Part shown: piece by piece, positions 13,028 to 57,704 of the stretch
How the letters are laid out: the number at the start of each line of letters is the position of its first letter
How positions within the stretch are numbered: the first letter of the stretch is position 1
From: Paenibacillus daejeonensis DSM 15491
GTDB taxonomy: Bacteria > Bacillota > Bacilli > Paenibacillales > Paenibacillaceae
Assembly (NCBI RefSeq): GCF_000378385.1
Contig: NZ_KB899661.1
Span: 162,816-226,815, forward strand
Length of the DNA stretch: 64,000 nt
Direction: 5' to 3'
Translations under genes and position numbers: made by a program
The notes under the pieces: generated by a model
The model's database searches: none
Told to the model about the DNA's origin: nothing
The model's input: the letters and a program-made list of their open reading frames with translations, nothing else

Positions 13028-13255
13028 TTATTTTCGTTGAAACGTACCGAAAAGGGCAGGATCGATTCTGGTCAACGCTTTCTGCAAGAAAGCGACTTCG
13101 GGAGCATAAGCTGCGAAGCGTTCGCCTCAGAGCTTTTCGAAGAAAAGCTAGCTTCGAAAGCATACGCTGTCCCCGGATTTCACCCCCTAAAGGGGTTAAT
13201 GAGAAAGAAATCTGGGGACAACAGTGATCGGAAGAACGATCCATGACCTTGAGCC
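13028..13255 (-). repeat. Dispersed repeat R2, copy 1
   Basis: About 210 bp that reappears in inverted orientation at 22065-22275 and, with internal deletions, at 55197-55350. Shared landmarks are GGATCG-CTTCC-ATC, TGTTGTCCCCAGATTTCTT, AATCCGGGGACAGC, GAAGCTAGCTTT, and a hairpin of CGCTTTCT with AGAAAGCG. It lies just after the isomerase stop at 13266. A 116-codon minus-strand frame spans it, but I attribute that to the repeat and not to a gene. Confidence 0.85.
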
Positions 13256-22064: not shown

Positions 22065-22275
22065 CCTACGGTCACGGATCGATCTTCCAATCGCTGTTGT
22101 CCCCAGATTTCTTGATTTTCTAACCGCTCTAGCGGCCCACAATCCGGGGACAGCCTATGCTTTCGAAGCTAGCTTTCCTACGAAAAGCTTTCAGGCGAAC
22201 GCTCCGCAGCGTATGCTCCCGAAGTCGCTTTCTTTCAGAAAGCGTGGACCAGATTCGATTCCGTGCCTCTTCGGC
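22065..22275 (+). repeat. Dispersed repeat R2, copy 2
   Basis: Inverted relative to copy 1 (13028-13255) and nearly colinear with it through TGTTGTCCCCAGATTTCTT, AATCCGGGGACAGC, GAAGCTAGCTTT, GGCGAACGCT and a hairpin of CGCTTTCT with AGAAAGCG. It adjoins the 51-bp array 2. Confidence 0.88.
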
Positions 22276-22298
22276 CATTACAACAGCCTGTATTGCTT

Positions 22299-41813: not shown

Positions 41814-41836
41814 GCGGCTGGGGGAGTTGTTGGTGC

Positions 41837-42075
41837 AATCCAAGTAACTTTTTGCCCTTGGTTGGGTGGGATCCCCTCTGTTGGTGCAATCCAAGTAACT
41901 TTTTACCCTTGGTTGGGTGCAATCCCCTCCGTTGGTGCAATCCAAGTAACTTTTTACCCTTGGTTGGGTGCAATCCCCTCCGTTGGTGCAATCCAAGTAA
42001 CTTTTTACCCTTGGTTGGGTGGAAACCCCTCCTTCAGCGCAATCCAAGTAACTTTTTGCCCTTGGTTCAGCGGCG
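41837..42075 (+). repeat. 51-bp tandem repeat array 4 (5 units)
   Basis: Units start at 41837, 41888, 41939, 41990 and 42041. The core is CAATCCAAGTAACTTTTT followed by RCCCTTGGTT, and the second half is GGGTGCAATCCCCTCCGTTG. It begins only about 20 bp after the ATPase stop and lies between convergent genes. The last two units of array 3 share this core. Confidence 0.95.
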
Positions 42076-42151: not shown

Positions 42152-43024
42152 TTACAATACCGGGCACGTGGTCAGGCGCACGCCGATGCCGCTCGGGTCG
42201 CGGAAGTACCACCCGTCGCCCTTGGTCTCCACCACAATGCCTGCCTCCTCGAGCCAGACCAAGATGTCTTCGATGTGCCCTACATCGGGATTGACGATGG
42301 TGTAGCTCGCCAACCCCGGGGCCTTCTCCGGCGTCGGCGGCGCGCCCTCTCCGGCCCATGTGTTGAGGCCGAGATGGTGGTGGTAGCCGCCCGCGGCCAC
42401 GAAGAGCGCCGAGGGGCCATAGCGCAGCTTCACACTGAAGCCCAGCAGCCCGCAATAGAAACGCTCTGCCTCCGCCAGGTTCCGCACATGCAGATGTACA
42501 TGCCCCATCCGGGTCCCCGCCGGCATGCCGTTCCATTCCCGCCCCTCAGCCTCGCGGAGCAGTCCATGCGCGTCCAGCGTATCCGCGCTCATGTAGATCT
42601 GTCCGCCCGCGAGTTGGGTCCATTGCTCCACCCGGCGGTCCCAATAGATCTCAATTCCGTTGTGGTCGGGATCAGACAGATAGAGCGCCTCGCTCACATC
42701 ATGGTCTGCGGAGCCTAGCTGAACCCTGCACTCTGCCAGCTGCCGAAGCACGAGCCCCAGATCGCTGCGGGTCGGCACCAGCAGCGCAAAATGATACAAA
42801 CCACTGGTTGAACGCGGCCGCACCTGCACCGCATCCTTTATTTCCTCCAGTACGATCAATGGATGAATGCCATCCACCGTCAGCCGCGTCAAGCCGTGGT
42901 ACCGGTTGAGCACGCGCAGCCCCAATACCTCGGTATAGAACGCCTCAGACCGCGCCATATCACTCACCCGCAGCTGCACAGAGCCCACCTCGGTTCCTGC
43001 ATGCGTCCGAGGCTTCATCGCCAT
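42152..43024 (-). CDS. Two-domain VOC protein (catechol-2,3-dioxygenase CatE-like)
   Basis: A protein of about 290 residues with two vicinal-oxygen-chelate halves. Recognisable ligand segments are GLYHFALLVP, DPDHNGIEIYWDR, GHVHLHVRNL and GGYHHHLGLNTW, the CatE-like pattern of extradiol ring-cleavage enzymes. AGGAGG favours the start at 43024; ATG at 43051, one base after the preceding gene, is an alternative. It is the last gene of the kinase operon. The substrate is unknown. Confidence 0.85.
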   Translation of the reverse strand: MAMKPRTHAGTEVGSVQLRVSDMARSEAFYTEVLGLRVLNRYHGLTRLTVDGIHPLIVLEEIKDAVQVRPRSTSGLYHFALLVPTRSDLGLVLRQLAECRVQLGSADHDVSEALYLSDPDHNGIEIYWDRRVEQWTQLAGGQIYMSADTLDAHGLLREAEGREWNGMPAGTRMGHVHLHVRNLAEAERFYCGLLGFSVKLRYGPSALFVAAGGYHHHLGLNTWAGEGAPPTPEKAPGLASYTIVNPDVGHIEDILVWLEEAGIVVETKGDGWYFRDPSGIGVRLTTCPVL

Positions 43025-43052
43025 CGCGGGACCGCCTCCTGCCGCGCCCATC

Positions 43053-43889
43053 TTAAGGCAGGGCCGGGGCCAGCGTCATGGTCGAGCCGCGAAAGCCCTT
43101 GACCTTATCCATGAACGCCTTGACCCGCTTTTCGTCGACCGCATTCTCGAACACGCCATCCTTCTTGAACGTGGTCCCCACTACCGCGCCATCTGCAACC
43201 GACAGCTGGGTCTCCACATTATCCAGCCGCATCCCCGTGTTGGCGAGCACAACCGTCTGCGGCACCGTATCCTTCACCCGCTTGAGAAGCTGCGTATCTG
43301 TCTCGGCACCGGCAATCAGGCCGGAGACACAGAGGGCATCGGGCCGATTATTGAACACCGTCGAGCGGGCAATGCTCTCAATATCGCGGTGCGCCAAGTA
43401 TTGGGCCGCCTCAGGGACAATATTGAAGAGCAGCTTGACGTTGGAAGCACCCAGCGCCTTCTGATGCCGGATCGTCTCGCCCACCTTTGTGTTCCACAAA
43501 CCAAAATCACTGGCATATACGCCTGTGAAAATCTCCCGTACGAACTGCGCACCTGTAGCAGCTGCCAGATCCAGCGATTTCTTGGCATCCCACAGCACAT
43601 TGACGCCATAGGGAATCCGGATATCCCGCATCAGCTCGCCAATGACCCGGGCCATCGCCGCCACCGTCTCGGTCCGGACATCGGTCAGATACGGCAGGCT
43701 GAACTCGTTGGAGAACATCACCGCATCGACGCCGCCATTTTGCAGAGCCAGCAGGTCGGCCCGGGCCGCCTCCACCACATAATCCATCCCCCTCACTTCG
43801 TCGTAATGCGGATCACCCGGCAACGGCTGCAGATGACACATGGCGATGATTCCTTTGTCTACACCGACCAACTCTTGTAACCAATTCAT
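43053..43889 (-). CDS. BtpA/SgcQ family TIM-barrel protein
   Basis: A 278-residue protein of PF03437. MCHLQPLPGDPHY, GGVDAVMFSNEFSLPY, VREIFTGVYASDFG and PVVLANTG-like VVLANTGMRLDNV are family segments. The family includes photosystem-I biogenesis protein BtpA and the E. coli sgc operon protein SgcQ; its enzymatic reaction is not established. Here it sits among a sugar kinase, SDR and HAD phosphatase, which fits an aldolase- or isomerase-like step. Gap of 17 bp to the HAD gene. Confidence 0.9.
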   Translation of the reverse strand: MNWLQELVGVDKGIIAMCHLQPLPGDPHYDEVRGMDYVVEAARADLLALQNGGVDAVMFSNEFSLPYLTDVRTETVAAMARVIGELMRDIRIPYGVNVLWDAKKSLDLAAATGAQFVREIFTGVYASDFGLWNTKVGETIRHQKALGASNVKLLFNIVPEAAQYLAHRDIESIARSTVFNNRPDALCVSGLIAGAETDTQLLKRVKDTVPQTVVLANTGMRLDNVETQLSVADGAVVGTTFKKDGVFENAVDEKRVKAFMDKVKGFRGSTMTLAPALP

Positions 43890-43906
43890 ACGAATCTCTC
43901 CTTCTA

Positions 43907-44680
43907 TTAGATGTGGACTGCTGCTGTTTCAATGAGGATATCGTCCAACGACTCAATAATGATACTGGCGCAGGGCAGCATCCGCTCTGCCATAACCGGA
44001 TCATCGGGAATTCCGATGCCTATGCTGCCCGCGGCGCTCGCCATCGCCACATCGACGAAGGAGTCACCAATCATGGCAATCCGGGGAAGCGGCACCCCAG
44101 TCGTCCGCGAGATCAGCTCCAGCATATCGGGGTGGGGCTTGCCACGCTCTACGTCGACAGGCGTCACGATGCACGTCAGCCACTCAATCGGCACATGCCG
44201 ACCAACCGAGCGGATCGTGCGATCGTAGTCATCCGAAGTAGCAATACCAAACGGGATCGCGGCCTGCTGCAGGCGGCAAAAGATATCGGGAAACCCCCGC
44301 TTCGGCTCCAGCGCCCCCTGCAGATCGAACTGCTCATCCGATTGCCGGAAGGCCGCCGCCGCCCGTTCCCGGGCGACCCCCCAGTCCCCGCCAGTCGATA
44401 CCTTGAGCAGCGAAGCGGTCACGATAATTTCCTCCTGGGGAGGCGCCAGGGCAAAGATTCCGGCGGGATCGATGTCGAGCGCCGTCAGGCCCGTATGCGT
44501 GATACCCATCAGCTCGCACCATTCGGTCAAGCCCGCCTCCCCTAGCAGCGGCTGCAGCACGCGCATCCGTGCCTCGGCCAGGCGCTGCCAGAAATAACGA
44601 GCGTCAAAGAGCAGTCCATCCTTGTCGAAGATGACCAGATCCACCTCAAAGGTCTGTTCCTTCATCCGTAGTACAGCCAT
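43907..44680 (-). CDS. HAD-family hydrolase (phosphatase type)
   Basis: A 257-residue hydrolase. The nucleophile motif FDKDGLLFD (in place of the usual DxDGTL), GIATSDD, the Lys in RGKPHPDML and MIGDSFVDVAMA complete the four HAD motifs. AAAGGAG precedes ATG 44680. A C1-type cap domain lies between motifs 1 and 2. It probably dephosphorylates a sugar phosphate made in this operon. Confidence 0.9.
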   Translation of the reverse strand: MAVLRMKEQTFEVDLVIFDKDGLLFDARYFWQRLAEARMRVLQPLLGEAGLTEWCELMGITHTGLTALDIDPAGIFALAPPQEEIIVTASLLKVSTGGDWGVARERAAAAFRQSDEQFDLQGALEPKRGFPDIFCRLQQAAIPFGIATSDDYDRTIRSVGRHVPIEWLTCIVTPVDVERGKPHPDMLELISRTTGVPLPRIAMIGDSFVDVAMASAAGSIGIGIPDDPVMAERMLPCASIIIESLDDILIETAAVHI

Positions 44681-44787
44681 GCTACCTTCTCCTTTCGCAA
44701 CGCGCGAACGCCATCACCAGTTCTATTGCTGCGTGTCATCCCTACAACTGACAGTCTCACCCGCAGAACACCGCCTCACCGCTCGCC

Positions 44788-46401
44788 TTACCACGTGGCC
44801 AACACGCCGTCGGTGCGGGGATCAGTGCCCCCGCAGAGGACACCGGTCTTCGGATCGCGCCAGATGATCTGGCCCCGGCCGAATAGCCCGGCATGCTCGG
44901 AGACAACCAGCTCGTGGCCCCGGGCGCGCAGCGCCTCAGCCAGCTCCGCCGGAAAATCCGGCTCAATCAGCACCTGGCGGTCCCTCTCCCAGCGCCAGCG
45001 CGGCGCATCCAGGGCAGCCTGGGGATTCAAACCTTCCTCGAGCGTGTGCAGCAGCACCTGCAGATGACCCTGCGGCTGCATGAAAGCCCCCATAACGCCG
45101 AACGGACCGATCGGCTGGCCGTCCTGCGAGAGGAAGCCGGGAATGATCGTATGATACGTCCGTTTGCCCGGCGCCAGGCAATTGGGGTGTCCCTCATTGA
45201 GAGTGAACGTGTGCCCCCGGTTATGCAGGCCGACACCGGTTTCCGGCACAACTAGGCCTGAGCCGAATTCCATATAGTTGCTCTGGATGTAAGAGACCAT
45301 ATTGCCTTCCCCATCCGCTGTCGCCAGATAGACCGTCCCGCCCCGAGGGACCGATCGCATCTCGGGCAGCAGTGCCTGCTCACCGATGCGTGCAGCCTTC
45401 TCCGCAGCCCAGGCCTCCGAGAGCAGATGGCTCACTGTCTCCTCCGGCATCTGGGCCGGGTCGGTGATCGCCCACAGGCCATCCTCGAAGGCCAGCTTCA
45501 TCGCCTCAATTCGCTGGTGACAGGCCGCTGCCGGATCGTCCGGCGGCTCGCCCAGCGCCTTAAGAATATTAAGCGCCATCAGTGTTACGATGCCCTGGCC
45601 ATTGGGCGGCAGCTCCCAGACCTCGCAATCGCGGTAATGGCTGCTGATCGGCGTCACCCACTCCGGCTGGAAGGCGGCCAGATCCGATTTGCGCAAATAA
45701 CCGCCATGCTCGCGGGAGAATGCATCGATTCGGTCAGCCAACTCGCCCTCATAGAAATCCCTTGCTTGACTTTGCGCAATCCGCCGCAGCGTATCCGCAT
45801 GACCCGGCGAAGCCCAAATCTCCCCGGGCTCCGGCGGCCTGCCGCCCGGCGCAAAGGTCTTGAACCAGGTAGCATACTGCTCGCCCTCGATGGCCTGTTC
45901 ATATTCATAGAACGCCTTCTTCCAGAACTTGCTTGCGGTCGGCGATACGGCGTAGCCCTCCTCCGCATAACGGATGGCGGGCTCCAGCAGCTCATCGAAG
46001 GGCAGCCGCCCGAACCGCTCGGAGAGCGCCGCCCAGGCAGCAGGCGCACCGGGCACCGTCACCGGCGTCCAGCCGTAGACCGGCATCTCGGTAAGCCCTT
46101 GCGCCCGCAGCTTGGCGGCGGAGATGCCCATCGGCGCCGGACCACTGGCGTTGAGGCCATGCAGCCGGTCCTTCATCCAGACGAGGGCAAAGGCATCGCC
46201 GCCGATGCCGTTGGAGCATGGCTCCACGACCGTCAGGCAAGCCGCCGTGGCGACGGCAGCGTCGACGGCGTTGCCGCCTTTCTTCAGCATATCCAGCCCG
46301 GCCTGGGCCGCCAGATGCTGAGAGGCGGCAACCATCCCGGAGCGGGCATAGAGCGTGGTGCGTTTAGATGCATGGGGGTACCGCGAAGCGTCTGTGTTCA
46401 T
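44788..46401 (-). CDS. Gamma-glutamyltransferase family protein
   Basis: A protein of about 537 residues of the Ntn-hydrolase GGT family. Family landmarks are GMVAASQHLAAQAGLDMLKKGGNAVDAAVA, EPCSNGIGGDAFALVW, the putative catalytic Thr in PRGGTVYLATADGEGNMVSYIQS and GWT-like ends. No signal peptide is seen, unlike many GGTs, so it is probably a cytoplasmic YwrD-like member. I start at ATG 46401 (AGAGGAGAAAG upstream), not at the longer frame to 46461. Its role in a sugar operon is unclear. Confidence 0.87.
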   Translation of the reverse strand: MNTDASRYPHASKRTTLYARSGMVAASQHLAAQAGLDMLKKGGNAVDAAVATAACLTVVEPCSNGIGGDAFALVWMKDRLHGLNASGPAPMGISAAKLRAQGLTEMPVYGWTPVTVPGAPAAWAALSERFGRLPFDELLEPAIRYAEEGYAVSPTASKFWKKAFYEYEQAIEGEQYATWFKTFAPGGRPPEPGEIWASPGHADTLRRIAQSQARDFYEGELADRIDAFSREHGGYLRKSDLAAFQPEWVTPISSHYRDCEVWELPPNGQGIVTLMALNILKALGEPPDDPAAACHQRIEAMKLAFEDGLWAITDPAQMPEETVSHLLSEAWAAEKAARIGEQALLPEMRSVPRGGTVYLATADGEGNMVSYIQSNYMEFGSGLVVPETGVGLHNRGHTFTLNEGHPNCLAPGKRTYHTIIPGFLSQDGQPIGPFGVMGAFMQPQGHLQVLLHTLEEGLNPQAALDAPRWRWERDRQVLIEPDFPAELAEALRARGHELVVSEHAGLFGRGQIIWRDPKTGVLCGGTDPRTDGVLATW

Positions 46402-46444
46402 CTCTTTCTCCTCTCTGGCCCACTGAATCTGCCATCCACAGGGG

Positions 46445-47227
46445 CTATAGCAGATCAGCACCGCCGGTGACGTCCAGTGCTTCGCCCGTTATGAAATCCG
46501 CGCCCGGTGAAGCGAGGAAGACGACAGCCTTGGCTACGTCCTCCGCCTCCTCCAGACGACCGAGCGGCGTCATGCGAATGTACTCCTCGCGCACCGCCTC
46601 CGGCGTCATACCGCGCAGCTCAGCCTCCCAGAGCAGCTCGCGGCTCTGCATCCCCGTGTTCACATAGCCGGGACAGACACAGTTGACCGTAATCCCATCC
46701 GGAGCAAGCTCAATCGCCGCACTCTTGGTGAAGCCAACCACCGCCCACTTGGATGCTGCATAGTGCGCCAGCAGCGGGACGCCGCGCTTACCTGCCATGG
46801 AGGCGGTATTGACGATGCGGGAGGTCGGCTGCAGTTTCAGATAGGGGTAAGCCGCTTGCGTACAGAGGAAGATGCCCTTAATATTCACATCAAAATTAAA
46901 ATCCCACTCTCGCTCCGTCAAATTCTCGATGCGGTTCATGGTCGACACGCCCGCATTGTTGACCAGAATGTCCAACTGGCTGTACTCGGCATGAATGTCG
47001 CTGAACACCCCGCTCACATGCTCCTTGCTCGTAACATCCAGTACACGCGATGTATGCGGTTTGTCTACCGGAGCAGCCAGCAGCGTGACCGTCTCGTGCG
47101 CAGCATCCCCGTTCACGTCGGTTGCAATCACCGTCGCGCCTGCCACTGCCAGATGAATGGCAATACTGCGGCCGATCCCGCTCCCCGCGCCTGTTACGAC
47201 GGCTACCTGTCCGCCCAATGTCTTCAT
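46445..47227 (-). CDS. Short-chain dehydrogenase/reductase
   Basis: A 260-residue NAD(P) oxidoreductase with TGAGSGIG near residue 13, NNAG, catalytic Ser in IVNTASMAG and YAASK. Its start overlaps the kinase stop by 4 bp. It probably oxidises a sugar or polyol in the operon. Confidence 0.92.
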   Translation of the reverse strand: MKTLGGQVAVVTGAGSGIGRSIAIHLAVAGATVIATDVNGDAAHETVTLLAAPVDKPHTSRVLDVTSKEHVSGVFSDIHAEYSQLDILVNNAGVSTMNRIENLTEREWDFNFDVNIKGIFLCTQAAYPYLKLQPTSRIVNTASMAGKRGVPLLAHYAASKWAVVGFTKSAAIELAPDGITVNCVCPGYVNTGMQSRELLWEAELRGMTPEAVREEYIRMTPLGRLEEAEDVAKAVVFLASPGADFITGEALDVTGGADLL

Positions 47228-48771
47228 CCTCTGTGTCCTCCTGTCATGAGCTCATGCTGCTCTTGGCTGTATAATGCATTCACACGGGCAAACTGCGGCT
47301 GCAGCTGCGGATACAGCTCCCGGTAGATTTGGTACGCCCGGTCGTAGATGCGGCGCTGCTCCTCCTGCGGCTCGTAGTCCCGATACTCCGTCAGGAAGCT
47401 GTCAATCTCCCGCCACTCCTCCATGAGCCCCACTGATTTGCCTGCCAGAAAAGCGACGCCCAGCGCCGACCCCGGGTGTGCCGGATAGGCACGGATACGG
47501 ACACCCAGCACATCGGCTGCAATCTGGCACCAGAATTTGCTCTTGGCACCGCCATTAGTCGCCAGTACCCGAGTCGGCTCACAGCCCAGCTCGCGGAGGA
47601 CATCCAGATGATGACGGAAGCCGTAGATGACCGCCTCCAGGATGGCCCGGAAGATGTGACCTCTGCCGTGGGATAACGTCAGGCCGAACAACACGCCCCG
47701 GGCCTCGGGATCCAGAATCGGCGTCTTCTCGCCGAGAAAATACGGCAGGATGATCAAGCCGTCCGAACCCGCAGGGACCGCCGCCGCTTCCTTATCCAAG
47801 GTAGCGAATAGCTCCGGCGACGAATCCTGCAGCATTTCATTCGCATACCATTTCACGAGCGAACCACTGGAGGCCATACAGCCATTGAGCAGGTACGCCT
47901 CCGGAATGACGTGATAGTCAAAGAACAGCTGGGGATCCGGGCGAATGTCCTCCGTACAATAGAGGATATCGCCGGCACCGCCGAACTTGATCAGCAGCTC
48001 CCCGGGCTCGGTGATGCCCGCCGCCAGCGTCGAAGCCACATGGTCGGCACTGCCAGCAATAACCGGGATGCCTACCGGAAGACCCGTAAGCGCCGCGGCG
48101 GCTTCACTGATCCCGCCGATCACCGACTGCGATTCATACACGGGCGGCAGCACGGTCTCCGGCAGACCCAGCAGCGCAAGCGAGTCATCTAGCCAGCGCC
48201 GGCTGCGGATATCATACATGCCACTCTCAACCGCCCAATTGATCTCCAGTGCCCGAACGCCCGTCAGCTTGTAATTGATATAATCATACGAGCCCATCAC
48301 GGTAGCGATGCCACGCCAGACTTCAGGCTCATGCCGCTTCACCCACAGCATCCGCGGCAGCACATGCTGCTGATTCGTATATCCGCCGGTGCGCCGGAAC
48401 AACGCGTCCTGATCCAGCGTCTCCGTGACCTCAGCAATCTCAGCGACTGCGCGGGCATCATTCTGCTGGATGGTCGGCCGCAGCGGCTCACCCGCTTCGT
48501 CCAGTAGAACAATCGCCGGCACCATGCCGCTGACCCCCACTGCAACGATGCCGCCAGCTGCGTCAGGGACGCGCTCATGCATGCGGCGAAGACCCGTCTG
48601 TGTATTTTGCCACCACTCACCGGCATCCTCCTCGGCCCAGCCAATCTGCGGCGAACGCAGTTGCTGCGCCACACTCGTCTGATAGACGATGCGATCCCGC
48701 GAGAGGAGAATAATTTTGACCCCGGTGGTCCCGATGTCGATCCCCAATGTATACGATGGCAGCTCGCCCAC
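47224..48771 (-). CDS. FGGY-family carbohydrate kinase (xylulokinase-like)
   Basis: A 515-residue ATP-dependent sugar kinase. GIDIGTTGVKIILL at the N-terminus, GVSGMVPAIVLLD, GSADHVASTLAAG, FGGAGDILYC and TNGGAKSKFWCQIAADVLG are the family motifs. The start is GTG at 48771, with AAGG close by. It is the first gene of the operon. Xylulose, ribulose, glycerol or erythritol-type substrates are all possible. Confidence 0.9.
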   Translation of the reverse strand: MGELPSYTLGIDIGTTGVKIILLSRDRIVYQTSVAQQLRSPQIGWAEEDAGEWWQNTQTGLRRMHERVPDAAGGIVAVGVSGMVPAIVLLDEAGEPLRPTIQQNDARAVAEIAEVTETLDQDALFRRTGGYTNQQHVLPRMLWVKRHEPEVWRGIATVMGSYDYINYKLTGVRALEINWAVESGMYDIRSRRWLDDSLALLGLPETVLPPVYESQSVIGGISEAAAALTGLPVGIPVIAGSADHVASTLAAGITEPGELLIKFGGAGDILYCTEDIRPDPQLFFDYHVIPEAYLLNGCMASSGSLVKWYANEMLQDSSPELFATLDKEAAAVPAGSDGLIILPYFLGEKTPILDPEARGVLFGLTLSHGRGHIFRAILEAVIYGFRHHLDVLRELGCEPTRVLATNGGAKSKFWCQIAADVLGVRIRAYPAHPGSALGVAFLAGKSVGLMEEWREIDSFLTEYRDYEPQEEQRRIYDRAYQIYRELYPQLQPQFARVNALYSQEQHELMTGGHRG

Positions 48772-48991
48772 CTCGCCTTCTCTTGTTGAATGCCGATCTA
48801 ATGCGATGGTTCCCCGCCACTCCCATGTCCGGGGTTCCTCTCCAGAACACGGGTCCGCCTGTTTTGTATAGGCTTAAACGATCCCCGTGCCGCGCTATGT
48901 CTGATTATTGTCTCCGCGTTGTCTCGCACACTTCGGCGTACTTTTACAGGCATTCTTATGATGGCACTAACCATTCTCGCGTCTACCACAA

Positions 48992-50302
48992 TCACGCTTT
49001 TACCGTGCTATCCTGCCCTGACTTGGCCTTCTCGCTCTTGACCGGAGCAAACGCCGGGTCCAGCGGGCAGGCTTCCTTCCAGGGAATGCCCTTGGGCGCA
49101 ATAACGCCTTCGCTGTAGATTTTGTCCATCGGGATGTCCGGGTCCAGCCCCAGCGGCTTCTCGCCTTGCTCCATCCGTTTGAGTGATTTTAGAATCATCC
49201 GCCGCAACGCAATGACCCCAACATCGCTGGTCCCCAGATGCTCGCGGGAACGGTCAACGATCGGTCCCATGCTCTCGGTCACGGCGTGGTCCTGATTGCT
49301 GATGCCGACGATACCAGAGAAATTGCCCGCCTTCATCATCTCCCGGTCCTGCTGGTAGTTGTTGCTCTTGTTGTAGAGCTTGCGGTAGTTCTCATCCACC
49401 CAGAGCCCGCGCCGTTCCTTCTGCGTGTCATGATTGAGCGGACGATCCAGGGTGAAGTGGATGTCGTAGGACCATGTCGTATGATCGTCGATCGGCACAT
49501 AGGCGTGGAACAGATGATCCTCCTCCTTGACCCGCGGGGTGTAGGCGAAGCTCGGCATCAGAATCGGCGCCTCCAGAATGAACTGCTCCTCCTCCCCCGA
49601 CTGCCCGACGAACATATTGCGGAAGCCGTAGGTGGTCGGTTCCACCGTCAACAGCGGGTTGTGGGAGGTGACAAGCGGATGCGACGGATTGATGCCCAGC
49701 TCGGTGCTGAGCGCCCCCTCCTTCATGTCCTGCTCCTGCAGGGCCAGATGGGCAAAAGCGGCGTGCATATAATCGATCTCATTCTCCCAAATCTGCAGAT
49801 AGTTGCACTCCTGGTACACCTTGGCCACCATCCGGTGCGACTCGGGCAGCGAGGTCCAGATTAGGTTGGGAAACGGCGGCTGCTCCTCGGCAAGTCCCAT
49901 GTAGGTCCAGACCAGACCGCCCGCCTCATGGATCGGGTAGCTTTTCTGTTTGATTGTATCTTTGAATTTGCTGTAGTCAGGCTCCGAAGGCATATTCGTG
50001 CATGAGCCATCCGTATCGAATGCCCAACCGTGATAGATACAGGTCAGGCCACAATCGTCGTTGCGGCCCAGCGCCAGGGAGGTTCCCCGATGCGGACAAA
50101 ATTCCCCGACCAGCCCAACCTTGCCCCCGCTGTTGCGAAAAGCAACCAGGCGCTCGCCGAGCAGCTTGACGGGCACCGGCGCCCCGCCGGGCTTGAGCTC
50201 CTCCGAGAGCAGTGCCGGGAGCCAGTAGCTGCGGAATAGCGCGCCAAGCGGCGTGCCTGCCCCGACCTGGGTGATGCGCTCGTTATCTTTGTGTGACAGC
50301 AT
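48992..50302 (-). CDS. Rieske non-haem iron oxygenase, large subunit
   Basis: A 436-residue aromatic-ring-hydroxylating type oxygenase. The Rieske [2Fe-2S] ligands are Cys69, His71, Cys88 and His91 (CPHRG and CIYHGW). The mononuclear iron site is IDYMHAAFAH with Asp177, His180 and His185. The phthalate dioxygenase/VanA-like single-component family fits best. I start at ATG 50302 (GGAGGG eight bases upstream); a longer frame to 50596 overlaps the amidase gene. Electrons should come from the ferredoxin at 54802-55158; no reductase is present. Confidence 0.92.
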   Translation of the reverse strand: MLSHKDNERITQVGAGTPLGALFRSYWLPALLSEELKPGGAPVPVKLLGERLVAFRNSGGKVGLVGEFCPHRGTSLALGRNDDCGLTCIYHGWAFDTDGSCTNMPSEPDYSKFKDTIKQKSYPIHEAGGLVWTYMGLAEEQPPFPNLIWTSLPESHRMVAKVYQECNYLQIWENEIDYMHAAFAHLALQEQDMKEGALSTELGINPSHPLVTSHNPLLTVEPTTYGFRNMFVGQSGEEEQFILEAPILMPSFAYTPRVKEEDHLFHAYVPIDDHTTWSYDIHFTLDRPLNHDTQKERRGLWVDENYRKLYNKSNNYQQDREMMKAGNFSGIVGISNQDHAVTESMGPIVDRSREHLGTSDVGVIALRRMILKSLKRMEQGEKPLGLDPDIPMDKIYSEGVIAPKGIPWKEACPLDPAFAPVKSEKAKSGQDSTVKA

Positions 50303-50346
50303 GTGTTCATCCCTCCATGGTGTTGGACATCTGCGTACGCCCGGGG

Positions 50347-51294
50347 TCAGCCAGCTTGCGCCGGACCGATCACCGACGTGTCGAGCATCCCGTGGACACC
50401 CTTGACGCCGTTGACGACCTGGGTAATATGAAAATCGGCGGCCAGACTGCACAGGCGGTACGCTTCCTTGTATGACAAGCCATATTGCGTCTCCAGCAGC
50501 TCGATCATGTGCCGGGTGGCGGCCACCAGCGCCCCTGTCAGACTCTCTTCCAGCCCCATGCTGATCAGGAGATGACCGCGTCTTGCATACGGCCACCGCT
50601 GATCCGTGCCCTTCAGGAGCTCAAAGTGAAACTCCCCCTCCAGGGCGGTCTCAATTGCCGTTACGTCAATCTCGCCATCACCCTGGGCGCCGTGCCCGTC
50701 GCCGGCATAGAAGAACGCGCCTTCCCGCATAACAGGCAAGTACAGCGTTGTACCTTCAATCAGCTGCTTGTTGTCGAGGTTGCCGCCGAAGCGACCCGGC
50801 GTGATGCTCGATACCCGGCCCCAGCTCTCCGGCGGGGCTACGCCCATGATGCCGAAGAACGGGCGGGTCGGCAGCTGCAACCGGCCCAGCTGGGCCGTGC
50901 TGCGATCTTCGTTATAAGTAAGAATGGCAGTATCCGGTTCATCAAACGCATGGTACAGCAGTCCTGACATCGGACCGATATAGTTAAAACCGTAAGGCGC
51001 ATCAATTTGAATTCGGTCCATACGCACTACGAGGGTGTCCCCGGGCTCGGCGCCCTTCACTGCAACCGGCCCCGTCAGGATATGAACCCCGGCTCCCCGA
51101 TCCGTCACGTGCTCATGGATGCTGCGCAGCTCCGGCGAAATCCAGGCTGCCGGCACGGGATCATCCGGTGAACCAGCGACCGAGCGCAGCACGAGCGAAT
51201 CGCCAGGTTCAATCTCCAAGGCCGGCTCCTGCGCCCCGCCGACATATCCCCAATGAACCGTTTCGGGCGAGGGATTCAAGTGATGTTTGGCCAT
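50347..51294 (-). CDS. Acetamidase/formamidase family protein
   Basis: A 315-residue amidase of the FmdA/AmdA family. HILTGPVAVKGAEPGDTL, GGNLDNKQLIEGTTLYLPV and FYAGDGHGAQGDGEI are diagnostic. It would release ammonia from an amide such as formamide or from a larger product. It lies between the binding protein and the Rieske oxygenase. Confidence 0.93.
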   Translation of the reverse strand: MAKHHLNPSPETVHWGYVGGAQEPALEIEPGDSLVLRSVAGSPDDPVPAAWISPELRSIHEHVTDRGAGVHILTGPVAVKGAEPGDTLVVRMDRIQIDAPYGFNYIGPMSGLLYHAFDEPDTAILTYNEDRSTAQLGRLQLPTRPFFGIMGVAPPESWGRVSSITPGRFGGNLDNKQLIEGTTLYLPVMREGAFFYAGDGHGAQGDGEIDVTAIETALEGEFHFELLKGTDQRWPYARRGHLLISMGLEESLTGALVAATRHMIELLETQYGLSYKEAYRLCSLAADFHITQVVNGVKGVHGMLDTSVIGPAQAG

Positions 51295-51324
51295 CTGAGA
51301 CGTCCCTCCTTGTCTGCTCTGCTG

Positions 51325-52368
51325 TTAGTCCGCGATTCGGCTGACGAATTCCTGATCCAGTACCTGACTAATATCAATCTTCTCCGGCACTGCGCCGGTT
51401 GAGGACAAAATCTCGTTGTAGTTCTCGATTTCATCAACTGCCGAGTCGTCCATGAACACCTCCAGCCGGAGCTGGGCCAGCCGCTCGGCCATCTCTTCCT
51501 CCGTCAGCTGGGTCGCGGCGCCAATGATCTTGCCGGCCTCCTCCGGGTTTTCCTCCAGGAACGTCTGCGCCTGCTGCAATGCGCGGATCAGCCTGCCGTA
51601 GGCGGCCGTGTACGCCTCATCCGACAGCGAGCCCTTCGAGACAAGCAGGTACGTTGTATTGGGAATGCCCAGTTCGCCGGAGGTGGTGATCAGCTTGACC
51701 TTGTCACCAAGCGCCTTCACCGCGTTGGCCGGGAACGGATCCCACAGTGCAAAAGCATCAATATCGCCGCGCGCCATCAAGGCTACCATCTCCGCTGGTC
51801 CGGTCTGCGTCACACTGTAGTCATCCCGCGTCAGGCCGGCATCGGCCAGGTACATATTTTCCAGCACATACTGGCTGACCGAGCCCGGTACGATCCCGAT
51901 GCTCCGCCCCTTCAGATCCTCAGGCCCCTCGACGTCGCTGCTGACGACAATGCTGACCGCTTCGGGCTGCTGGCTAACCGCTGTCAGTCCAGTGATGCCG
52001 ATGTCGACACCCCGGATTGGGAACGTGTCCGCTGCCCCGAAGGCCACCTGGATCTGTCCGGCCTGCAGGGAATCGACCGCCTCCGCGCCATTGGCGAACG
52101 AGACAATCTCATAATCCAGTCCCTGATCGGAGATAAAGCCCTGATCATCCGCAATGAATAGCAGGCCCGAGGAAGGACCGGATTCCCGGGAGATTCGCAG
52201 CGACGGCAGCTCCACAGCAGGCTCTGCCCCGCCATTGTTCACCGCATTTGTGCCTTCAGACGATCCTTGCGTCGATCCTGAGGTGCCCGTGCTCGCGCTG
52301 TTGCCGCAAGCCGCTACGACCAGACTCACTGCCATCACCATAACTGCAACGTACAGTTTGATTTTCAT
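51325..52368 (-). CDS. ABC transporter substrate-binding lipoprotein (NMT1/SsuA type)
   Basis: A binding protein of about 347 residues. The lipoprotein signal is MKIKLYVAVMVMAVSLVVAAC, cut here at position 21 of the listing (the anchored Cys). The body has SAGQIQ-type and GRSIGIVPGS segments of the NMT1/taurine/nitrate family. I start at ATG 52368; ATG 52377 is too close to its Shine-Dalgarno. It should bind the cluster's substrate outside the cell. Confidence 0.85.
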   Translation of the reverse strand: MKIKLYVAVMVMAVSLVVAACGNSASTGTSGSTQGSSEGTNAVNNGGAEPAVELPSLRISRESGPSSGLLFIADDQGFISDQGLDYEIVSFANGAEAVDSLQAGQIQVAFGAADTFPIRGVDIGITGLTAVSQQPEAVSIVVSSDVEGPEDLKGRSIGIVPGSVSQYVLENMYLADAGLTRDDYSVTQTGPAEMVALMARGDIDAFALWDPFPANAVKALGDKVKLITTSGELGIPNTTYLLVSKGSLSDEAYTAAYGRLIRALQQAQTFLEENPEEAGKIIGAATQLTEEEMAERLAQLRLEVFMDDSAVDEIENYNEILSSTGAVPEKIDISQVLDQEFVSRIAD

Positions 52369-52405
52369 CCTGCTCATCTCTCCACTCTTTTTATATAGGA
52401 TGCCT

Positions 52406-53188
52406 TTAGAGTTGATCCAGAAAATAGCGCCGACCGATTCGCTTAATCGCCTGCCTGAATGTATAGTCAATCGCGATGCCCAGCAGTCCGACGAGAATCG
52501 TACCGACGAAGATTTGATCCATCCGCATATACACACTGCCATACTTGATGATGTAGCCGACCCCCGACGTTGCATCCATCATCTCGGCCGTCACGATCGT
52601 CAGGAAGCTGTAGCTCATGCCGATCCGTGCCCCCGCCAGGATGCTTGGTACTGTGGAGGGGACAATAATTGTCCGAAACAACCGGAAGCCACTGGCCCCC
52701 ATGGCACGGGCTGCGCGGATTTTCACCTCATCGATGCTCGCCACCCCGGTCATGATGTACAGGAACGAGCCGAAGAAGGAAGCATACGTCAGCAGAATCA
52801 GCTTGGACATCTCACCCGTGCCGAACCAGAGAATAATCATGCTGAGCCAAGCGACCGGCTCGACGAACCGGAGTGGGAACAACAGCGGCTGGATGCCTCT
52901 GCGCAGCCATCCGATCATACCGAGCGCCCAGCCAATGCACGTGGCGAGCAACAGGCCAAGCAGCCACCCAGCGCAGAGCCGCAGCAGACTGACGCCCAGA
53001 CTTTCAAATATCAGACCGTTCTGCAGCATTTGTACGAAGGCGTCCCACACCTGCGCAGGCGGCGGCAGGAACAAGGACGGCACCACCTCCATAGCTGACA
53101 TGGACGCCCAGAGAGCCAGTGCCACCGCGAAGGGCAGTAGGATCAGCAAGGCTTGCATGCCTTTGGATTGCAGCTTCATCTCCATCAC
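52406..53188 (-). CDS. ABC transporter permease (SsuC/TauC type)
   Basis: A 260-residue permease with six helices and the EAA-like loop IRAARAMGASGFRLFRTIIVP. It starts at GTG 53188 or ATG 53185, overlapping the stop of the second permease. With two permeases of the same family, the importer may be a heterodimer. Confidence 0.9.
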   Translation of the reverse strand: MMEMKLQSKGMQALLILLPFAVALALWASMSAMEVVPSLFLPPPAQVWDAFVQMLQNGLIFESLGVSLLRLCAGWLLGLLLATCIGWALGMIGWLRRGIQPLLFPLRFVEPVAWLSMIILWFGTGEMSKLILLTYASFFGSFLYIMTGVASIDEVKIRAARAMGASGFRLFRTIIVPSTVPSILAGARIGMSYSFLTIVTAEMMDATSGVGYIIKYGSVYMRMDQIFVGTILVGLLGIAIDYTFRQAIKRIGRRYFLDQL

Positions 53189-53952
53189 CCCCGCAACATA
53201 AATCGATAGCCAAAGATTCGAAATGCCAATCGTACCACCGTGTCCGCAAGTACGCCCATCAACCCGAGGGTCAGCACGCCGAGCAGCGCCACATCCGTCT
53301 GATGCAGCACCCGGGCGCTCCAGATCATCTGACCGACACCTTCCTGGGCCGCCAGCGTCTCAATGCCGACAATACTCATGAAGGCAAAAGCGAGCGAGCC
53401 ACGCATGCCCTTGAGTGCTTCCGGGATAACCGATGGGATGAGTACGCCCCAGAATATCCGTAGCGGCCCCGCGCCCATGGAGCGGGCGGCCTGCAGCCGG
53501 GCAGGCGCTACGCGCTGCACCGCCTCGGCGATATTGATGGCGACGACGAGCGCCACCCCGTAACCGATAATAAGAATTTTGATCGTTTCGCCTACACCCA
53601 GCCAGATGACCAGAATCGGCACAAGCGCCACCGCCGGGATCACCCGGAAGAACTGCATCGGTGAATAGATGATCGTGCCAAACCACCGATAACGCCCCAT
53701 CACGATGCCCAGGACGAGCCCGAAGAGACTGCCCAGCCCCCAGCCCAGCATGACGCGCTGGTAGCTGGCTCCGACGGTCACGAGATACTCACGCGTTTGA
53801 ATCTGTTCAAAGAATAACAGCAGGACCCGGATCGGACCTGGTAGAAAAGAAGGTCCGGACAGCCAGGCGGCAATCTGCCACAGGAGGAGAAAACACAAGG
53901 TGCCAAGCAGACCGATCAGCCATCGCCAGCTTAAGGGCCGCCGCGAGGTCAT
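53185..53952 (-). CDS. ABC transporter permease (SsuC/TauC type), second
   Basis: A 255-residue permease with the EAA-like loop [21 protein letters not shown]. It is clearly a paralogue of the neighbouring permease. It overlaps the ATPase gene by 4 bp. Confidence 0.9.
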
Positions 53953-54776
53953 AGGACATGCACACTGGCCTTGAAGGGATTGTCGATCTCATCCAACAGG
54001 CGGTTGTACAGATTGGCGAAGGGCTCTGTCATCCGCTCTCTTGGATAAGGGAGATCCACGGGAAGATCAGCCTTGATATTGGGCTCCGGCGCCCGGGCCA
54101 TGACGATGACACGATCCGCCAGCAGGAGCGCTTCCTGAATGTCATGCGTGATGAAAAGCACGGTCTTGCCGGCCTTGCGGCAGAGTGCCGAGAGCTCCTG
54201 CTGCAGATACGTGCGCGTCTGCGCATCTAGCGCTGCGAACGGCTCATCCATGAGTAGAATCTCTGGATCGCCTGCCAGAACCCGGGCAATCTGCACCCGC
54301 TGCTTCATGCCGCCGGATAACTCCCCGGGAAATTTGGCGCCATGCTGCTCCAAGCCGACCTGCTTCATCCAATAGTGAATGCGCTCCTTCATCTCAGCCT
54401 TGGGCAGCCGCTTCATCTTCAAGCCATAGGCGATATTCTCTTCCACCGTCAGCCACGGAAACAAGGCCGTATCACTCTGGAACACAACTCCCCGCTCCGG
54501 GCCTGGCCCCTTGATGGCCTTGCCATTCATCCGGATCTCACCCTCGCTCGGCTCCTCGAAGCCTGCAACCATGTTCATCAGCGTTGTTTTGCCGCAGCCG
54601 CTTGGACCCAGCACGCAGAGAAAACCACCCCGCTCCAGCTTCAGATTCACTTCCCGAACGACCTTCACTTTCTCTTTGGTATGCCGCTGATATTCCTTGC
54701 CGATATTGACGAATTCCAGTGCGGTCTCCCGCGCCTCCGGGATGGAAGGCAGGTGTTTGGCAGCCATCGCAGACAT
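53949..54776 (-). CDS. ABC transporter ATP-binding protein (SsuB/TauB type)
   Basis: A 275-residue ATPase with Walker A GPSGCGKT, signature LSGGMKQR, Walker [13 protein letters not shown] and H-loop [17 protein letters not shown] lies before ATG 54776. It powers the two permeases at 52406-53952. Confidence 0.93.
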
Positions 54777-54801
54777 GGCATCTCTCTCCTTTTGAGTCAG
54801 A

Positions 54802-55158
54802 TTAACAATGAAGAACCACATACCCATCCTCTACCGTCACCTCGTAATGCTTCACCCGGCTCTGTCGGTCCGCGACCAGCGCATCACCACTGGTTACATC
54901 GAACTCCCACCTGTGCCAGGGGCAGCGAAGAATCTCGCCTTTGCGCCCGTAGTCGTACTCCCCCACGCAAGAGGGAAGATTGGTCCCCGTCAGCTCCCCG
55001 TCGGACAACCGGGCGCCCTGATGCGGGCAGACATCCCGCAGAGCCTGGTAACTGCCGTCCGGGGTCCGCACCAGCACAAAAGCTCGTTTGCCGACTTCCA
55101 CACTGCGCTTGCTCCCCGGGTTCATCTCCTCTTCCCTGCACACGATATGCTTCTTCAC
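54802..55158 (-). CDS. Rieske-type [2Fe-2S] ferredoxin
   Basis: A 118-residue Rieske ferredoxin with Cys44, His46, Cys79 and His82 (CPHQG and CPWHRW). AAGGAGG is followed by a GTG start at 55158; the open frame continues into repeat R2 upstream, which I exclude. It presumably passes electrons to the oxygenase at 48992-50302. Confidence 0.88.
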
Positions 55159-55196
55159 CTGCGGCTTCCTCCTTTTCAAACACGCTAAGGCTGGTG

Positions 55197-55350
55197 ATAA
55201 AGAAAAGCCTACAGTCACGGATCGATCTTCCGATCGCTGTTGTCCCCAGATTTCTTTGATTTTCCCCCCTTCTTGGGGTGAAATCCGGGGACAAAGGCGA
55301 ACGCTTCGCTTCTCCAGATTCGATTCCGTGCCTCTCCGGCCTTTTTTCAA
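55197..55350 (+). repeat. Dispersed repeat R2, copy 3 (internally deleted)
   Basis: Shares TCACGGATCGATCTTCC, TGTTGTCCCCAGATTTCTTT, AATCCGGGGACA, GGCGAACGCTTCGC and AGATTCGATTCCGTGCCTCT with copy 2 but lacks the two hairpin blocks in between. It lies in the spacer between the amidohydrolase and ferredoxin genes. Confidence 0.85.
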
Positions 55351-55434
55351 CAGCCTGAATCTTTAGACACTCTATTCTGAATATTCAGAATAAAATAAAT
55401 GCACAAATGCTTGGCCCGCTATTCACTGACATCC

Positions 55435-56514
55435 TTAAGTCAATCCGTAGAACTTGGCGGCATTTTCGTAGAAAATCTTGCGCTTCAGCTCCTTGCTGAA
55501 GCTAGTCGGCAGGGAACGCAGCGGCGAGTCAAAATCCCAATGCGGATAATCCGTCGAGAACATCAACAGCTCGTCGCTGTCCATCAGCTCCACCATCTTG
55601 AGCATGTGCATCGGATCAGGGTCTTCGATGGGCTGCGTCGCAAAGCGGAAGTGCTCCTTCACATATTCGCTCGGCAGCCGCTTGACCCACGGAACTTCGA
55701 GCCGCAGCGACTTGTAGTTCTGATCCATCCGCCACATCAGCGACGGCAGCCAGGAGAAGCCACCCTCCAGCATCGCAATCCTTGTCCCCGGATACTTGTC
55801 GAACACGCCGTTCACGATCAGATTAACGACGGAGGCCATGAACGCTTGCGACAAAATCGTATGCCACTCGATATAGTAGCGCGGCTGCCCGAATGGACTG
55901 CGAACCGAGTTGCCCTGGTGCATAGCGACGACCAATCCTTTGCGCTCGGCGGCTTCATAGATGCCGTGGTAGAAAGGATCGCCGTAAGCCGCTGTGCCGA
56001 TCGGCAGCAGCACCTGCACCATGCGCGGATGATCGGCCATCCGCTCAATCTCCCGTACGGCCAGCTCTGGAATCTGGGGCGCAACGTGAATGGAGCCGAG
56101 AAAACGTTCATCCTTATCTAGCCAATGCTCGACCATCCAATCGTTATAGGCTGAGGCTAGCGCTGCCGCTAGCTCGAACTGGGCCTCCATGGTGGCCGGG
56201 TAGAACAATCCTGTCAGCATTGCCTTGTGGATATCGTACTTGTCCATGAGCTGCTCCTGCAGCACGCCCAGATCCGAGCCCGGCACATTACCGTTCGGGA
56301 GCAGCGAATCGAGCTTGGAGCCGCCGATCGGATGAATATACTTCAGCTCTCCCCAACCCGTCCAATGCTCCATGTAGCTCAGGAACGGCTCCTTCATATA
56401 CGGGAGCAGCTCTTGGATCGAAGCGAACCTTTCGTGCACATCCGTGTCGATAATCGGGACGGTCTCGGTCCGGTTGGTCTCACGCTGCTCCGGACTCACT
56501 TGGCTAATCGTCAT
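55435..56514 (-). CDS. Amidohydrolase family protein (ACMSD-like, PF04909)
   Basis: A 359-residue TIM-barrel metal hydrolase or decarboxylase. The N-terminal metal motif is IIDTDVHERF; further ligands are expected in GLVVAMHQGN and the Asp of LLMFSTDYPHWDFD. Members include aminocarboxymuconate-semialdehyde and resorcylate decarboxylases. The gene has a near-perfect sigma-A promoter. It is upstream of the ferredoxin gene and separated from it by repeat R2. Confidence 0.88.
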   Translation of the reverse strand: MTISQVSPEQRETNRTETVPIIDTDVHERFASIQELLPYMKEPFLSYMEHWTGWGELKYIHPIGGSKLDSLLPNGNVPGSDLGVLQEQLMDKYDIHKAMLTGLFYPATMEAQFELAAALASAYNDWMVEHWLDKDERFLGSIHVAPQIPELAVREIERMADHPRMVQVLLPIGTAAYGDPFYHGIYEAAERKGLVVAMHQGNSVRSPFGQPRYYIEWHTILSQAFMASVVNLIVNGVFDKYPGTRIAMLEGGFSWLPSLMWRMDQNYKSLRLEVPWVKRLPSEYVKEHFRFATQPIEDPDPMHMLKMVELMDSDELLMFSTDYPHWDFDSPLRSLPTSFSKELKRKIFYENAAKFYGLT

Positions 56515-56543
56515 CCCTGCTTCAGCCTCCCCACCAATATTAT

Positions 56544-56553
56544 GTTATATAAC
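56544..56553. promoter_or_regulatory. Palindromic candidate operator
   Basis: GTTATATAAC is a perfect palindrome in the leader between the -10 and the amidohydrolase start, about 30 bp before the ATG. A bound repressor would block transcript elongation. Confidence 0.4.
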
Positions 56554-56592
56554 CTAACACATTTGCTAGGCGAACTAGCTTTGGTAGTTCCG

Positions 56593-56621
56593 ATTATAGA
56601 ACGTTTTTGAATATGTGTCAA
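56593..56621 (-). promoter_or_regulatory. Consensus sigma-A promoter of the amidohydrolase gene
   Basis: On the minus strand TTGACA (56621-56616), 17 bp, TATAAT (56598-56593): an exact match to both hexamers and the optimal spacer. Confidence 0.9.
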
Positions 56622-56730
56622 CTATAATCACATAATGATCTTTAATCAATCAAGTTTTGATCAATTTTAATCGGACATACTGCCGACACAACAGCGATAA
56701 CGTCATATTATCTAACTTAAACATAACAAA

Positions 56731-56768
56731 AAAAGCCTGCCCGGCTGCACCGTGCAGCTAAGCAAGCT
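56731..56768 (-). terminator. Terminator of the DeoR gene
   Basis: On the minus strand AGCTGCAC pairs with GTGCAGC in an extended stem, followed by TTTTTTT. Confidence 0.8.
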
Positions 56769-56785
56769 AGACTCATCTAATCCTT

Positions 56786-57529
56786 CTACACAATCGTCAA
56801 ACGGCCGTGGAAACCCAACTCCTCGCCGGAAGTCGGAATCGCCGTTGTCACTAACTCGTCAATCTCATTGTAGTCGCACACCTTCACTAGCGAGGCACCG
56901 CCATATTTGGAGCCATCCGCCAGTGCAATCACCTTCTTTGATCGTTCGATCATATGGCGCTTGATCTCAACCTCTTCCAAATTAAAATCCGTCGGACCTT
57001 GCTCGGCATTAAACCCTGCCAGCCCCATGAAGAAGCGGTCAAAGTTGAACTGGCGTATCGTTTCCTTAGCTAGCGTCCCCACCATCGACTGCTCCGACTT
57101 GCGGAAGCGTCCCCCGATGACATAGACGTTATGCTGGCTACGGGAGAGAATAAAGGCAATTTGAAGAGAGTAGGTAAACACGGTCAGATTGGACATTTTC
57201 AGCAGCTCTTTGGCCAGCTCCGCATTCGTCGTCCCAGCGTCGAGCGCAATCACCTCGCCTTCCGCAATCTGACTGGCTGCATACTGGGCGATCCGCTTCT
57301 TGTCATCCTGGTTGTGTCGGGAACGCTGATTGAACAGCGGTTCAAAGCCCAGTCCAGGCAATGACGCCCCGCCCCGCTGCCGCAGAATTACCCCATCCTG
57401 CTCCATCGCAGCCAGGTCGCGCCTCACAGTCGGTTCCGACACCTGCAGCAGCACAGCCAGCTCTTCCACCGTCAGCGGCGACTTCTCTTGCAGAAAAGCA
57501 AGGATTCGTTCTTCGCGCATGTTGGTCAT
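56786..57529 (-). CDS. DeoR family transcriptional regulator
   Basis: A 247-residue regulator. The N-terminal winged helix reads LTVEELAVLLQVSEPTVRRDL; the C-terminal sugar-phosphate-binding domain has ALDAGTTNAELAKEL and ADGSKYGGASLVKVC. I start at ATG 57529 (AAAGGAAA upstream). DeoR proteins often regulate sugar-kinase operons, so the FGGY kinase operon or the Rieske cluster are likely targets. Confidence 0.88.
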   Translation of the reverse strand: MTNMREERILAFLQEKSPLTVEELAVLLQVSEPTVRRDLAAMEQDGVILRQRGGASLPGLGFEPLFNQRSRHNQDDKKRIAQYAASQIAEGEVIALDAGTTNAELAKELLKMSNLTVFTYSLQIAFILSRSQHNVYVIGGRFRKSEQSMVGTLAKETIRQFNFDRFFMGLAGFNAEQGPTDFNLEEVEIKRHMIERSKKVIALADGSKYGGASLVKVCDYNEIDELVTTAIPTSGEELGFHGRLTIV

Positions 57530-57704
57530 AGCATCGTTTCCTTTTTTTCTTTTCACTATACCATAACCCATGATCATTTGTGTGCGAAATAATCAATTTC
57601 GATCAACATCATTCTTTCAACTCGTATCGCTGGCATAATGCTAGGGCTCCCCCCAGCGTCCCGGCCTCGGCCACAACCTCATACCGCTCCCCATCCTGGC
57701 TTGC

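Follow-up and report, generated by a model that had tools for sequence, protein, structure and literature searches.

In a 64,000-nucleotide stretch of the genome of the soil bacterium Paenibacillus daejeonensis DSM 15491 (contig NZ_KB899661.1, positions 162,816 to 226,815; referred to here as the window), genes for a Rieske oxygenase (RO), a small Rieske ferredoxin, an amidohydrolase-like protein, an acetamidase/formamidase-family protein and an ABC importer lie side by side on the minus strand, and the question arises which kind of compound such a combination serves. The original prediction delimited an uncharacterised oxidative catabolic cluster at 48992-56514 and proposed tests with aromatic amides, N-heterocycles and formamide. 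Its description as uncharacterised is upheld, and no close homologue with a known substrate turned up. The analysis favours, with moderate confidence, an inducible catabolic regulon in which two O2-activating enzymes would unmask, by stripping or opening it, a compound that contains nitrogen and bears a polyol or sugar, so that its carbohydrate part could enter a BtpA/SgcQ-FGGY kinase pathway.

Extent and conservation of the gene set

Domain searches of the open reading frames of the window recovered all of the genes named in the original prediction at their positions on the minus strand. The seven codirectional genes from the ferredoxin (54802-55158) to RO (48992-50302) are indeed closely spaced, with gaps of 22, -4, -4, 37, 30 and 44 bp. 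The limits at 48992 and 56514 were too narrow: on the 3′ side of RO, genes for an FGGY kinase, an SDR oxidoreductase, a GGT-like hydrolase, a HAD hydrolase, a BtpA/SgcQ protein and a two-domain VOC protein extend on this strand as far as 42152 and are conserved together with the oxygenase half, and a DeoR gene lies upstream at 56786-57577. The cluster spans 42152-57577 with about 14 genes, roughly double the earlier extent. Because the cluster had been cut in half and its sugar-kinase/BtpA part missed, a purely aromatic-amide interpretation was too narrow. The genes are given below; their boundaries are computed predictions.

56786-57577, minus strand: DeoR/GlpR-family regulator (Pfam HTH_DeoR and DeoRC)
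55435-56514, minus strand: amidohydrolase-related dinuclear monooxygenase (ARO; PF04909; ligands D25, H27, H199, E250, D322 and H325, second-sphere D327)
54802-55158, minus strand: small Rieske ferredoxin (CxH...CxxH), candidate electron donor of ARO by gene pairing
53949-54776, minus strand: ATPase of the ABC importer, NMT1/SsuB type (profile matches)
53185-53952, minus strand: ABC permease 1 (profile matches)
52406-53188, minus strand: ABC permease 2 (31% identical to permease 1)
51325-52368, minus strand: substrate-binding lipoprotein, NMT1/SsuA type (profile matches)
50347-51294, minus strand: AmdA, acetamidase/formamidase family (PF03069; GDGHxxxGDGE motif intact)
48992-50302, minus strand: RO, Rieske oxygenase of the LigXa_C type (CxH-x17-CxxH and D177-x2-H-x4-H intact; phthalate anchors replaced)
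47224-48771, minus strand: FGGY carbohydrate kinase (FGGY family; below the xylulokinase cut-off)
46445-47227, minus strand: SDR oxidoreductase (profile matches)
44788-46401, minus strand: GGT-like Ntn hydrolase (no obvious signal peptide; nearest solved structure 2nlz)
43907-44680, minus strand: HAD hydrolase (profile matches)
43053-43889, minus strand: BtpA/SgcQ family protein (71% identical to Escherichia coli SgcQ)
42152-43051, minus strand: two-domain VOC protein of the glyoxalase/extradiol type (Arg for the usual Glu of the C-domain triad)

A search of other genomes, as proposed with the original prediction, found the gene set conserved in Paenibacillus sp. 598K, P. sabuli, Cohnella thermotolerans and genome G214. 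Since it is kept there at about 55-99% identity in rearranged order, the set is far beyond chance. Strain 598K (about 92-99% per protein, HAD and GGT being lowest) and P. sabuli (58-85%) keep the set of the window including the NMT1-type importer. In C. thermotolerans the order is ARO-ferredoxin-DeoR, a sugar-type ABC importer and RO-VOC-AmdA-FGGY-SDR-GGT-BtpA, followed by a DUF1349 gene, an iron alcohol dehydrogenase, HAD and a TrxR-like flavoprotein. In G214 it is DeoR-AmdA-RO-FGGY-SDR-GGT-HAD-BtpA-VOC-sugar ABC-CocE/NonD hydrolase-DUF1349; this locus contains no ARO or ferredoxin, and no ARO match is listed genome-wide at E <= 1e-40.

The window and these four genomes are the five loci that carry an RO orthologue of at least 78% identity. 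In all five, RO, AmdA, the GGT-like protein, HAD, BtpA, VOC, FGGY, SDR and DeoR are found together, reordered and with the importer exchanged (NMT1 type in the window, 598K and P. sabuli; sugar type in Cohnella and G214). In a sample of 344 genomes of the order, such RO orthologues occur only in the genome of the window and in G214, in both cases inside this set.

A smaller core of DeoR-BtpA-FGGY-SDR-sugar ABC occurs without oxygenases in other Paenibacillales (genomes G074 and G145), in Thermus and in Salipiger. In G074 and G145 only these genes are present, with HAD additionally in G074; in Thermus, Salipiger and on Rhizobium plasmids the enzymes and the regulator share 34-52% identity with those of the window. 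The versions of R. indigoferae and R. leguminosarum BT01 carry an extra GGT-family gene and a Rieske oxygenase of the VanA_C type. The Rhizobium plasmid cluster (NZ_CP140638, NZ_CP125639) resembles that of the window in DeoR, BtpA (44%), FGGY (46%), SDR (52%), the GGT-family protein (33%), a sugar ABC importer and a nearby Rieske oxygenase, whereas its VanA_C-type oxygenase is split in two genes, no ARO or ferredoxin was seen there, and purine- and BMP-type genes surround it. It is likewise uncharacterised, and the DeoR-BtpA-FGGY-GGT-Rieske region is apparently an uncharacterised island. On NZ_CP140638, genes for an 8-oxoguanine deaminase, a formamidase, a questin oxidase-family protein and two ABC systems of the BMP type lie close to the cluster.

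Judged from gene content, the set is built of three layers: a widespread core, an RO/AmdA/GGT/VOC block that moves together (5/5 loci), and an optional pair of ARO and ferredoxin.

The two oxygenases and their electron supply

The protein at 55435-56514 had been described as an ACMSD-like amidohydrolase. A PF04909 domain is present (140 bits, cut-off 26.4), but an ACMSD-like function is not supported. The best PDB matches are 8SM8, 8SM9, 8SM7 and 8SM6 (E 1e-108 to 1e-83; 47.8% identity to 8SM8), followed by AibH2 (1e-55), whereas ACMSD structures match at about 1e-9 only. The entries 8SM6-8SM9 are four amidohydrolase-related dinuclear oxygenases including SfbO (PMC10811679), and AibH1H2 is a Mn/Fe aminoisobutyrate hydroxylase (PMC7782822, PMC10401708). 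The AibH2 ligands D25/H27/H211/E265/D337/H340 and D342 align with D25/H27/H199/E250/D322/H325 and D327 of the window protein, and four orthologues keep all six ligands and the second-sphere Asp unchanged. The first metal motif, D25-x-H27, is not of the HxH type of ACMSD. By this motif, the complete dinuclear ligand set and the difference in E-values, an identity as ACMSD, a mononuclear HxH-type decarboxylase, is not supported, and the sequence places the "amidohydrolase" among the ARO dinuclear monooxygenases.

With SfbO and AibH1H2, the window ARO shares the fold family, the metal ligands with the second-sphere Asp, an adjacent small Rieske ferredoxin and an importer close by. It differs in that no AibH1-type partner was seen beside it, no AibF-type reductase is present in the cluster, and it is linked to a sugar-kinase module. 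In addition, the sulfate-binding R232/R235 of SfbO are replaced by H218/L221 in the alignment, for which reason the substrate is probably not a sulfonate. SfbO performs N-dealkylation on surrogate substrates, and the native substrates of the four published ARO candidates could not be inferred from genomic data (PMC10811679). AROs of 41-49% identity are frequent in the order (99/344 genomes at E <= 1e-40); the possession of an ARO is therefore ordinary, and it is the genomic context that stands out. AROs of the SfbO/AibH2 type often occur in at least five copies per large genome of family f6. An AlphaFold model of ARO (4 sequences, pLDDT 45.5) was too poor and was not used.

RO possesses both a Rieske [2Fe-2S] motif and a 2-His-1-carboxylate iron site. 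It matches the LigXa_C/phthalate dioxygenase (PDO) group (PDO_KF1, 7FJL/7V25; IPDO, 9INA) over the full length including the Rieske motif and the iron triad, but all three PDO anchors are replaced and no PDR/VanB reductase gene is present in the locus. S182, R207 and R244, which hold phthalate in phthalate dioxygenase (PMC10511449, PMC12445078), align with A, N and L in RO, and this replacement is conserved in the orthologues. Relatives of 51-53% identity are found in operons of aromatic type, one of which contains a VOC dioxygenase and meta-cleavage genes, and relatives of about 42% lie beside zinc-type dehydrogenases, ABC or meta-cleavage genes; none of either group occurs with this gene set. 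The nearest plasmid relatives (<=43%) were rejected as a guide, their contexts being unrelated.

At every inspected ARO locus of sufficient reach the ferredoxin is paired with ARO, except for L051, where neither gene was called; such pairs are also present at the paralogous loci L049, L050, L052 and L093. In the surroundings of a Rhodococcus opacus relative of ARO (51%), only the ARO-ferredoxin pair was recognised, and the AROs of the cited papers have likewise been recognised by a small Rieske protein nearby. Because the G214 cluster keeps RO and has neither ARO nor ferredoxin, the ferredoxin is assigned, on gene content, to ARO and not to RO. It also shows a weak match to the MocE family.

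As originally noted, no ferredoxin reductase is encoded in the cluster of the window. A PF00175 search of the P. daejeonensis genome yielded four loci; judged by size only, none of them was recognised as a two-component PDR/AibF-type gene next to an oxygenase. The search for the missing reductase did provide a candidate from the Cohnella cluster, namely the TrxR-like flavoprotein at its end (L037:2957-3937; Pyr_redox_2), which has a 70% homologue elsewhere in the P. daejeonensis genome (C1:1260459-1261421). The flavoprotein, which we take to be a YumC-type ferredoxin-NAD(P) reductase, is a candidate and not a demonstration.

Kinase half, hydrolases and regulation

In the kinase half, BtpA exceeds the curated cut-off of the BtpA/SgcQ family (TIGR00259; 338.2 bits, cut-off 153.4). 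Certain nitrogen-containing carbon sources induce the E. coli operon sgcABCEQX, which has no assigned substrate (PMC13343008). Besides the close SgcQ homologue, the window resembles this operon in its sugar-type context; it differs by an FGGY kinase, an SDR and an ABC importer in place of the phosphotransferase system and the epimerase, and by the attached oxygenases. A literature search on SgcQ revealed no biochemical function. At three further loci (L060-L062), BtpA/SgcQ proteins of about 71% identity stand beside a purine-nucleoside-phosphorylase-family gene, an FGGY kinase, DeoR, an M42 peptidase and a BMP-like ABC importer, a context hinting at a nucleoside-linked role for this SgcQ branch. 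A TAG inside BtpA in three genomes turned out to be the normal stop codon, and an AlphaFold model (single sequence, pLDDT 39.6) was discarded as too poor.

The FGGY protein scores 357.5 bits with the xylulokinase XylB model (TIGR01312), below the curated 380.25. Likewise, the GGT-like protein matches PF01019 and stays below the gamma-glutamyltransferase cut-off (TIGR00066; 311.9 bits, curated 357.85), and AmdA matches PF03069 with 111 bits and reaches 60.1 of the curated 500 bits for the formamidase FmdA (NF045496). AmdA travels with RO in 5/5 loci, which fits the release of a small amide after oxidation, in line with the earlier suggestion of an amide or N-formyl group. The AmdA relatives inspected (43-47%) lie in unrelated contexts and were not used as a guide. 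The two permeases are paralogous, as stated before, with 31% mutual identity.

The VOC protein presumably resembles the Bacillus CatE (YfiE) family. The metal triad of its C-terminal domain is His, His and Arg in all five orthologues and not the His-His-Glu of type I extradiol dioxygenases, and for this reason ring cleavage by VOC was not assumed.

Three further features are of importance for regulation and for the architecture of the upstream region:

56593-56621, minus strand: predicted sigma-A-type promoter TTGACA-N17-TATAAT, preceding ARO; the only 12/12 match in the region
56543-56559: candidate operator palindrome TGTTA-N7-TAACA (TGTTAGGTTATATAACA), downstream of the promoter; unique in the 64-kb window
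55190-55355, unstranded: dispersed structured repeat of about 166 bp, inserted in the 276 bp that separate the ARO gene from the ferredoxin gene

The palindrome is found before ARO in 598K and P. sabuli, before the AmdA-RO operon in G214, and in Cohnella before ARO and a second time before the transporter genes, where one base of an arm deviates. Its background frequency is one per 221 kb (twelve unrelated loci). DeoR accompanies the cluster in 598K, P. sabuli, Cohnella and G214 and is present at the core-only loci too, and the palindrome is the probable DeoR operator. Together with the promoter, the recurrence of the palindrome ahead of the operons of the set in the five genomes suggests a single regulon. 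Three other copies in the P. daejeonensis genome were inspected and lie beside PucR/ABC and two-component genes or a repeat, with no reductase.

The repeat of about 166 bp has at least 40 copies in the genome with 85-94% identity (40 of 176 candidates scored) and a DNA fold z-score of -5.9; it has no counterpart at the ARO-ferredoxin site of the near-identical strain 598K. Further sites in the window lie near 13168-13247 and 22065-22290. Just downstream of the VOC gene, a tandem array (41829-42067; 51-bp unit, 4.7 copies, 94% matches) was observed, and a repeat of similar look lies in translated frames near 385 kb of contig C3 of the P. daejeonensis genome (L110).

Proposed pathway and alternatives

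In the favoured regulon, DeoR would repress from the palindrome until an intermediate appears, and the importer, of the NMT1 or the sugar type depending on the species, would take up the compound. RO, together with ARO where present, may then hydroxylate a C-H next to N or O, resulting in dealkylation, or a position on a ring. Amide bonds freed in this way could be cut by AmdA and the GGT-like hydrolase to ammonium and an acid. SDR would oxidise the polyol or keto sugar that remains, the FGGY kinase would phosphorylate it, and BtpA and HAD would process it. This reading is supported by the ARO assignment of the 55435-56514 protein and its pairing with the ferredoxin, by the gene set kept in 5/5 loci, by the core module occurring elsewhere without oxygenases, by the C-N hydrolases around the Rhizobium and Salipiger versions (allophanate hydrolase, isochorismatase-type hydrolases, AtzE/HpxZ, 8-oxoguanine deaminase and formamidase), by the induction of sgcABCEQX on certain nitrogen-containing carbon sources, and by promoter and palindrome.

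Several points weigh against this reading. FGGY, SDR and HAD are broad families, and NMT1-type importers are not typical for sugars. No member has a known substrate, product or activity. That the substrate contains nitrogen is deduced from C-N hydrolases encoded nearby. The palindrome is not over-represented in the P. daejeonensis genome (7 sites, against 15 for the reversed control), and its support is therefore positional. Furthermore, E. coli sgc deletion mutants have no growth defect (PMC13343008). Finally, the closest RO relatives (51-53%) belong to operons of aromatic type, which makes an aromatic compound a possible alternative.

This last point leads to catabolism of an aromatic or N-heteroaromatic compound, a possible though doubtful explanation, in which RO would hydroxylate the ring, VOC would cleave it, AmdA would take ammonia off an amide, and the kinase half would handle a glycosyl or ribityl side group. 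The membership of RO in the LigXa_C/phthalate dioxygenase group, the operons of its relatives with their VOC dioxygenase and meta-cleavage enzymes, the VOC gene kept with RO in 5/5 loci and the 8-oxoguanine deaminase and BMP-type ABC genes near the Rhizobium version are consistent with it. However, the phthalate anchors are lost from RO, the VOC triad has Arg for Glu in all orthologues, no lower meta- or ortho-cleavage genes belong to the set, and a sugar-type ABC importer is present in 2/5 loci.

A more specific form of the favoured pathway is rather improbable and put forward tentatively: ARO (dinuclear Mn/Fe or Fe/Fe) and RO would oxidise the carbon next to the amide nitrogen of an N-acylated amino sugar or polyol, so that AmdA would receive a small primary amide to hydrolyse and a carbonyl polyol would enter the SgcQ/BtpA-FGGY route.

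Oxidative O-demethylation of a methylated sugar or cyclitol is unlikely. Here ARO, RO or both would release the methyl group as formaldehyde and the freed sugar would enter the FGGY/SDR/BtpA route. MocDEF in rhizopine demethylation is a precedent, and the ferredoxin has its weak MocE-family match; the Rhizobium oxygenase beside BtpA-FGGY-GGT has the demethylase-type C-terminus of VanA_C, and dealkylation is performed by Rieske oxygenases (PMC10511449) and AROs (PMC10811679). This explanation leaves AmdA, the GGT-like and the CocE/NonD hydrolases unaccounted for, and no dedicated formaldehyde-disposal gene is conserved in the set. Riboflavin, nucleosides, rhizopine and O-methyl sugars were considered as substrates, none of which was proven.

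That two unrelated operons, one with oxygenases and importer and one with the sugar kinase pathway, are neighbours by chance would agree with the 220-bp gap between RO and FGGY and with the core module occurring alone elsewhere, but is largely refuted and highly improbable, as about 50 bp separate RO from FGGY in 598K, in G214 FGGY comes straight after RO and AmdA without an importer, the Cohnella genes are interleaved in a new order, and no RO orthologue of at least 78% was found outside the set.

AROs are mostly orphan enzymes. The one in the window belongs to a tightly conserved, apparently regulated set that also comprises a kinase, a dehydrogenase, another oxygenase and a candidate operator, which allows the search for its substrate to use induction and to work back along the pathway from the kinase. 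A natural dissection series is available in the versions of the set with the core only, with the oxygenase added and with ARO added. As a caution for annotation, a PF04909 gene that has a small Rieske protein as its neighbour should not be labelled an ACMSD-like hydrolase. The same set holds a close homologue of E. coli SgcQ, whose operon lacks a known substrate (PMC13343008). If the oxidation of an amide-adjacent carbon proves true, it would give the SfbO-type branch a native role in carbohydrate catabolism and SgcQ a first function.

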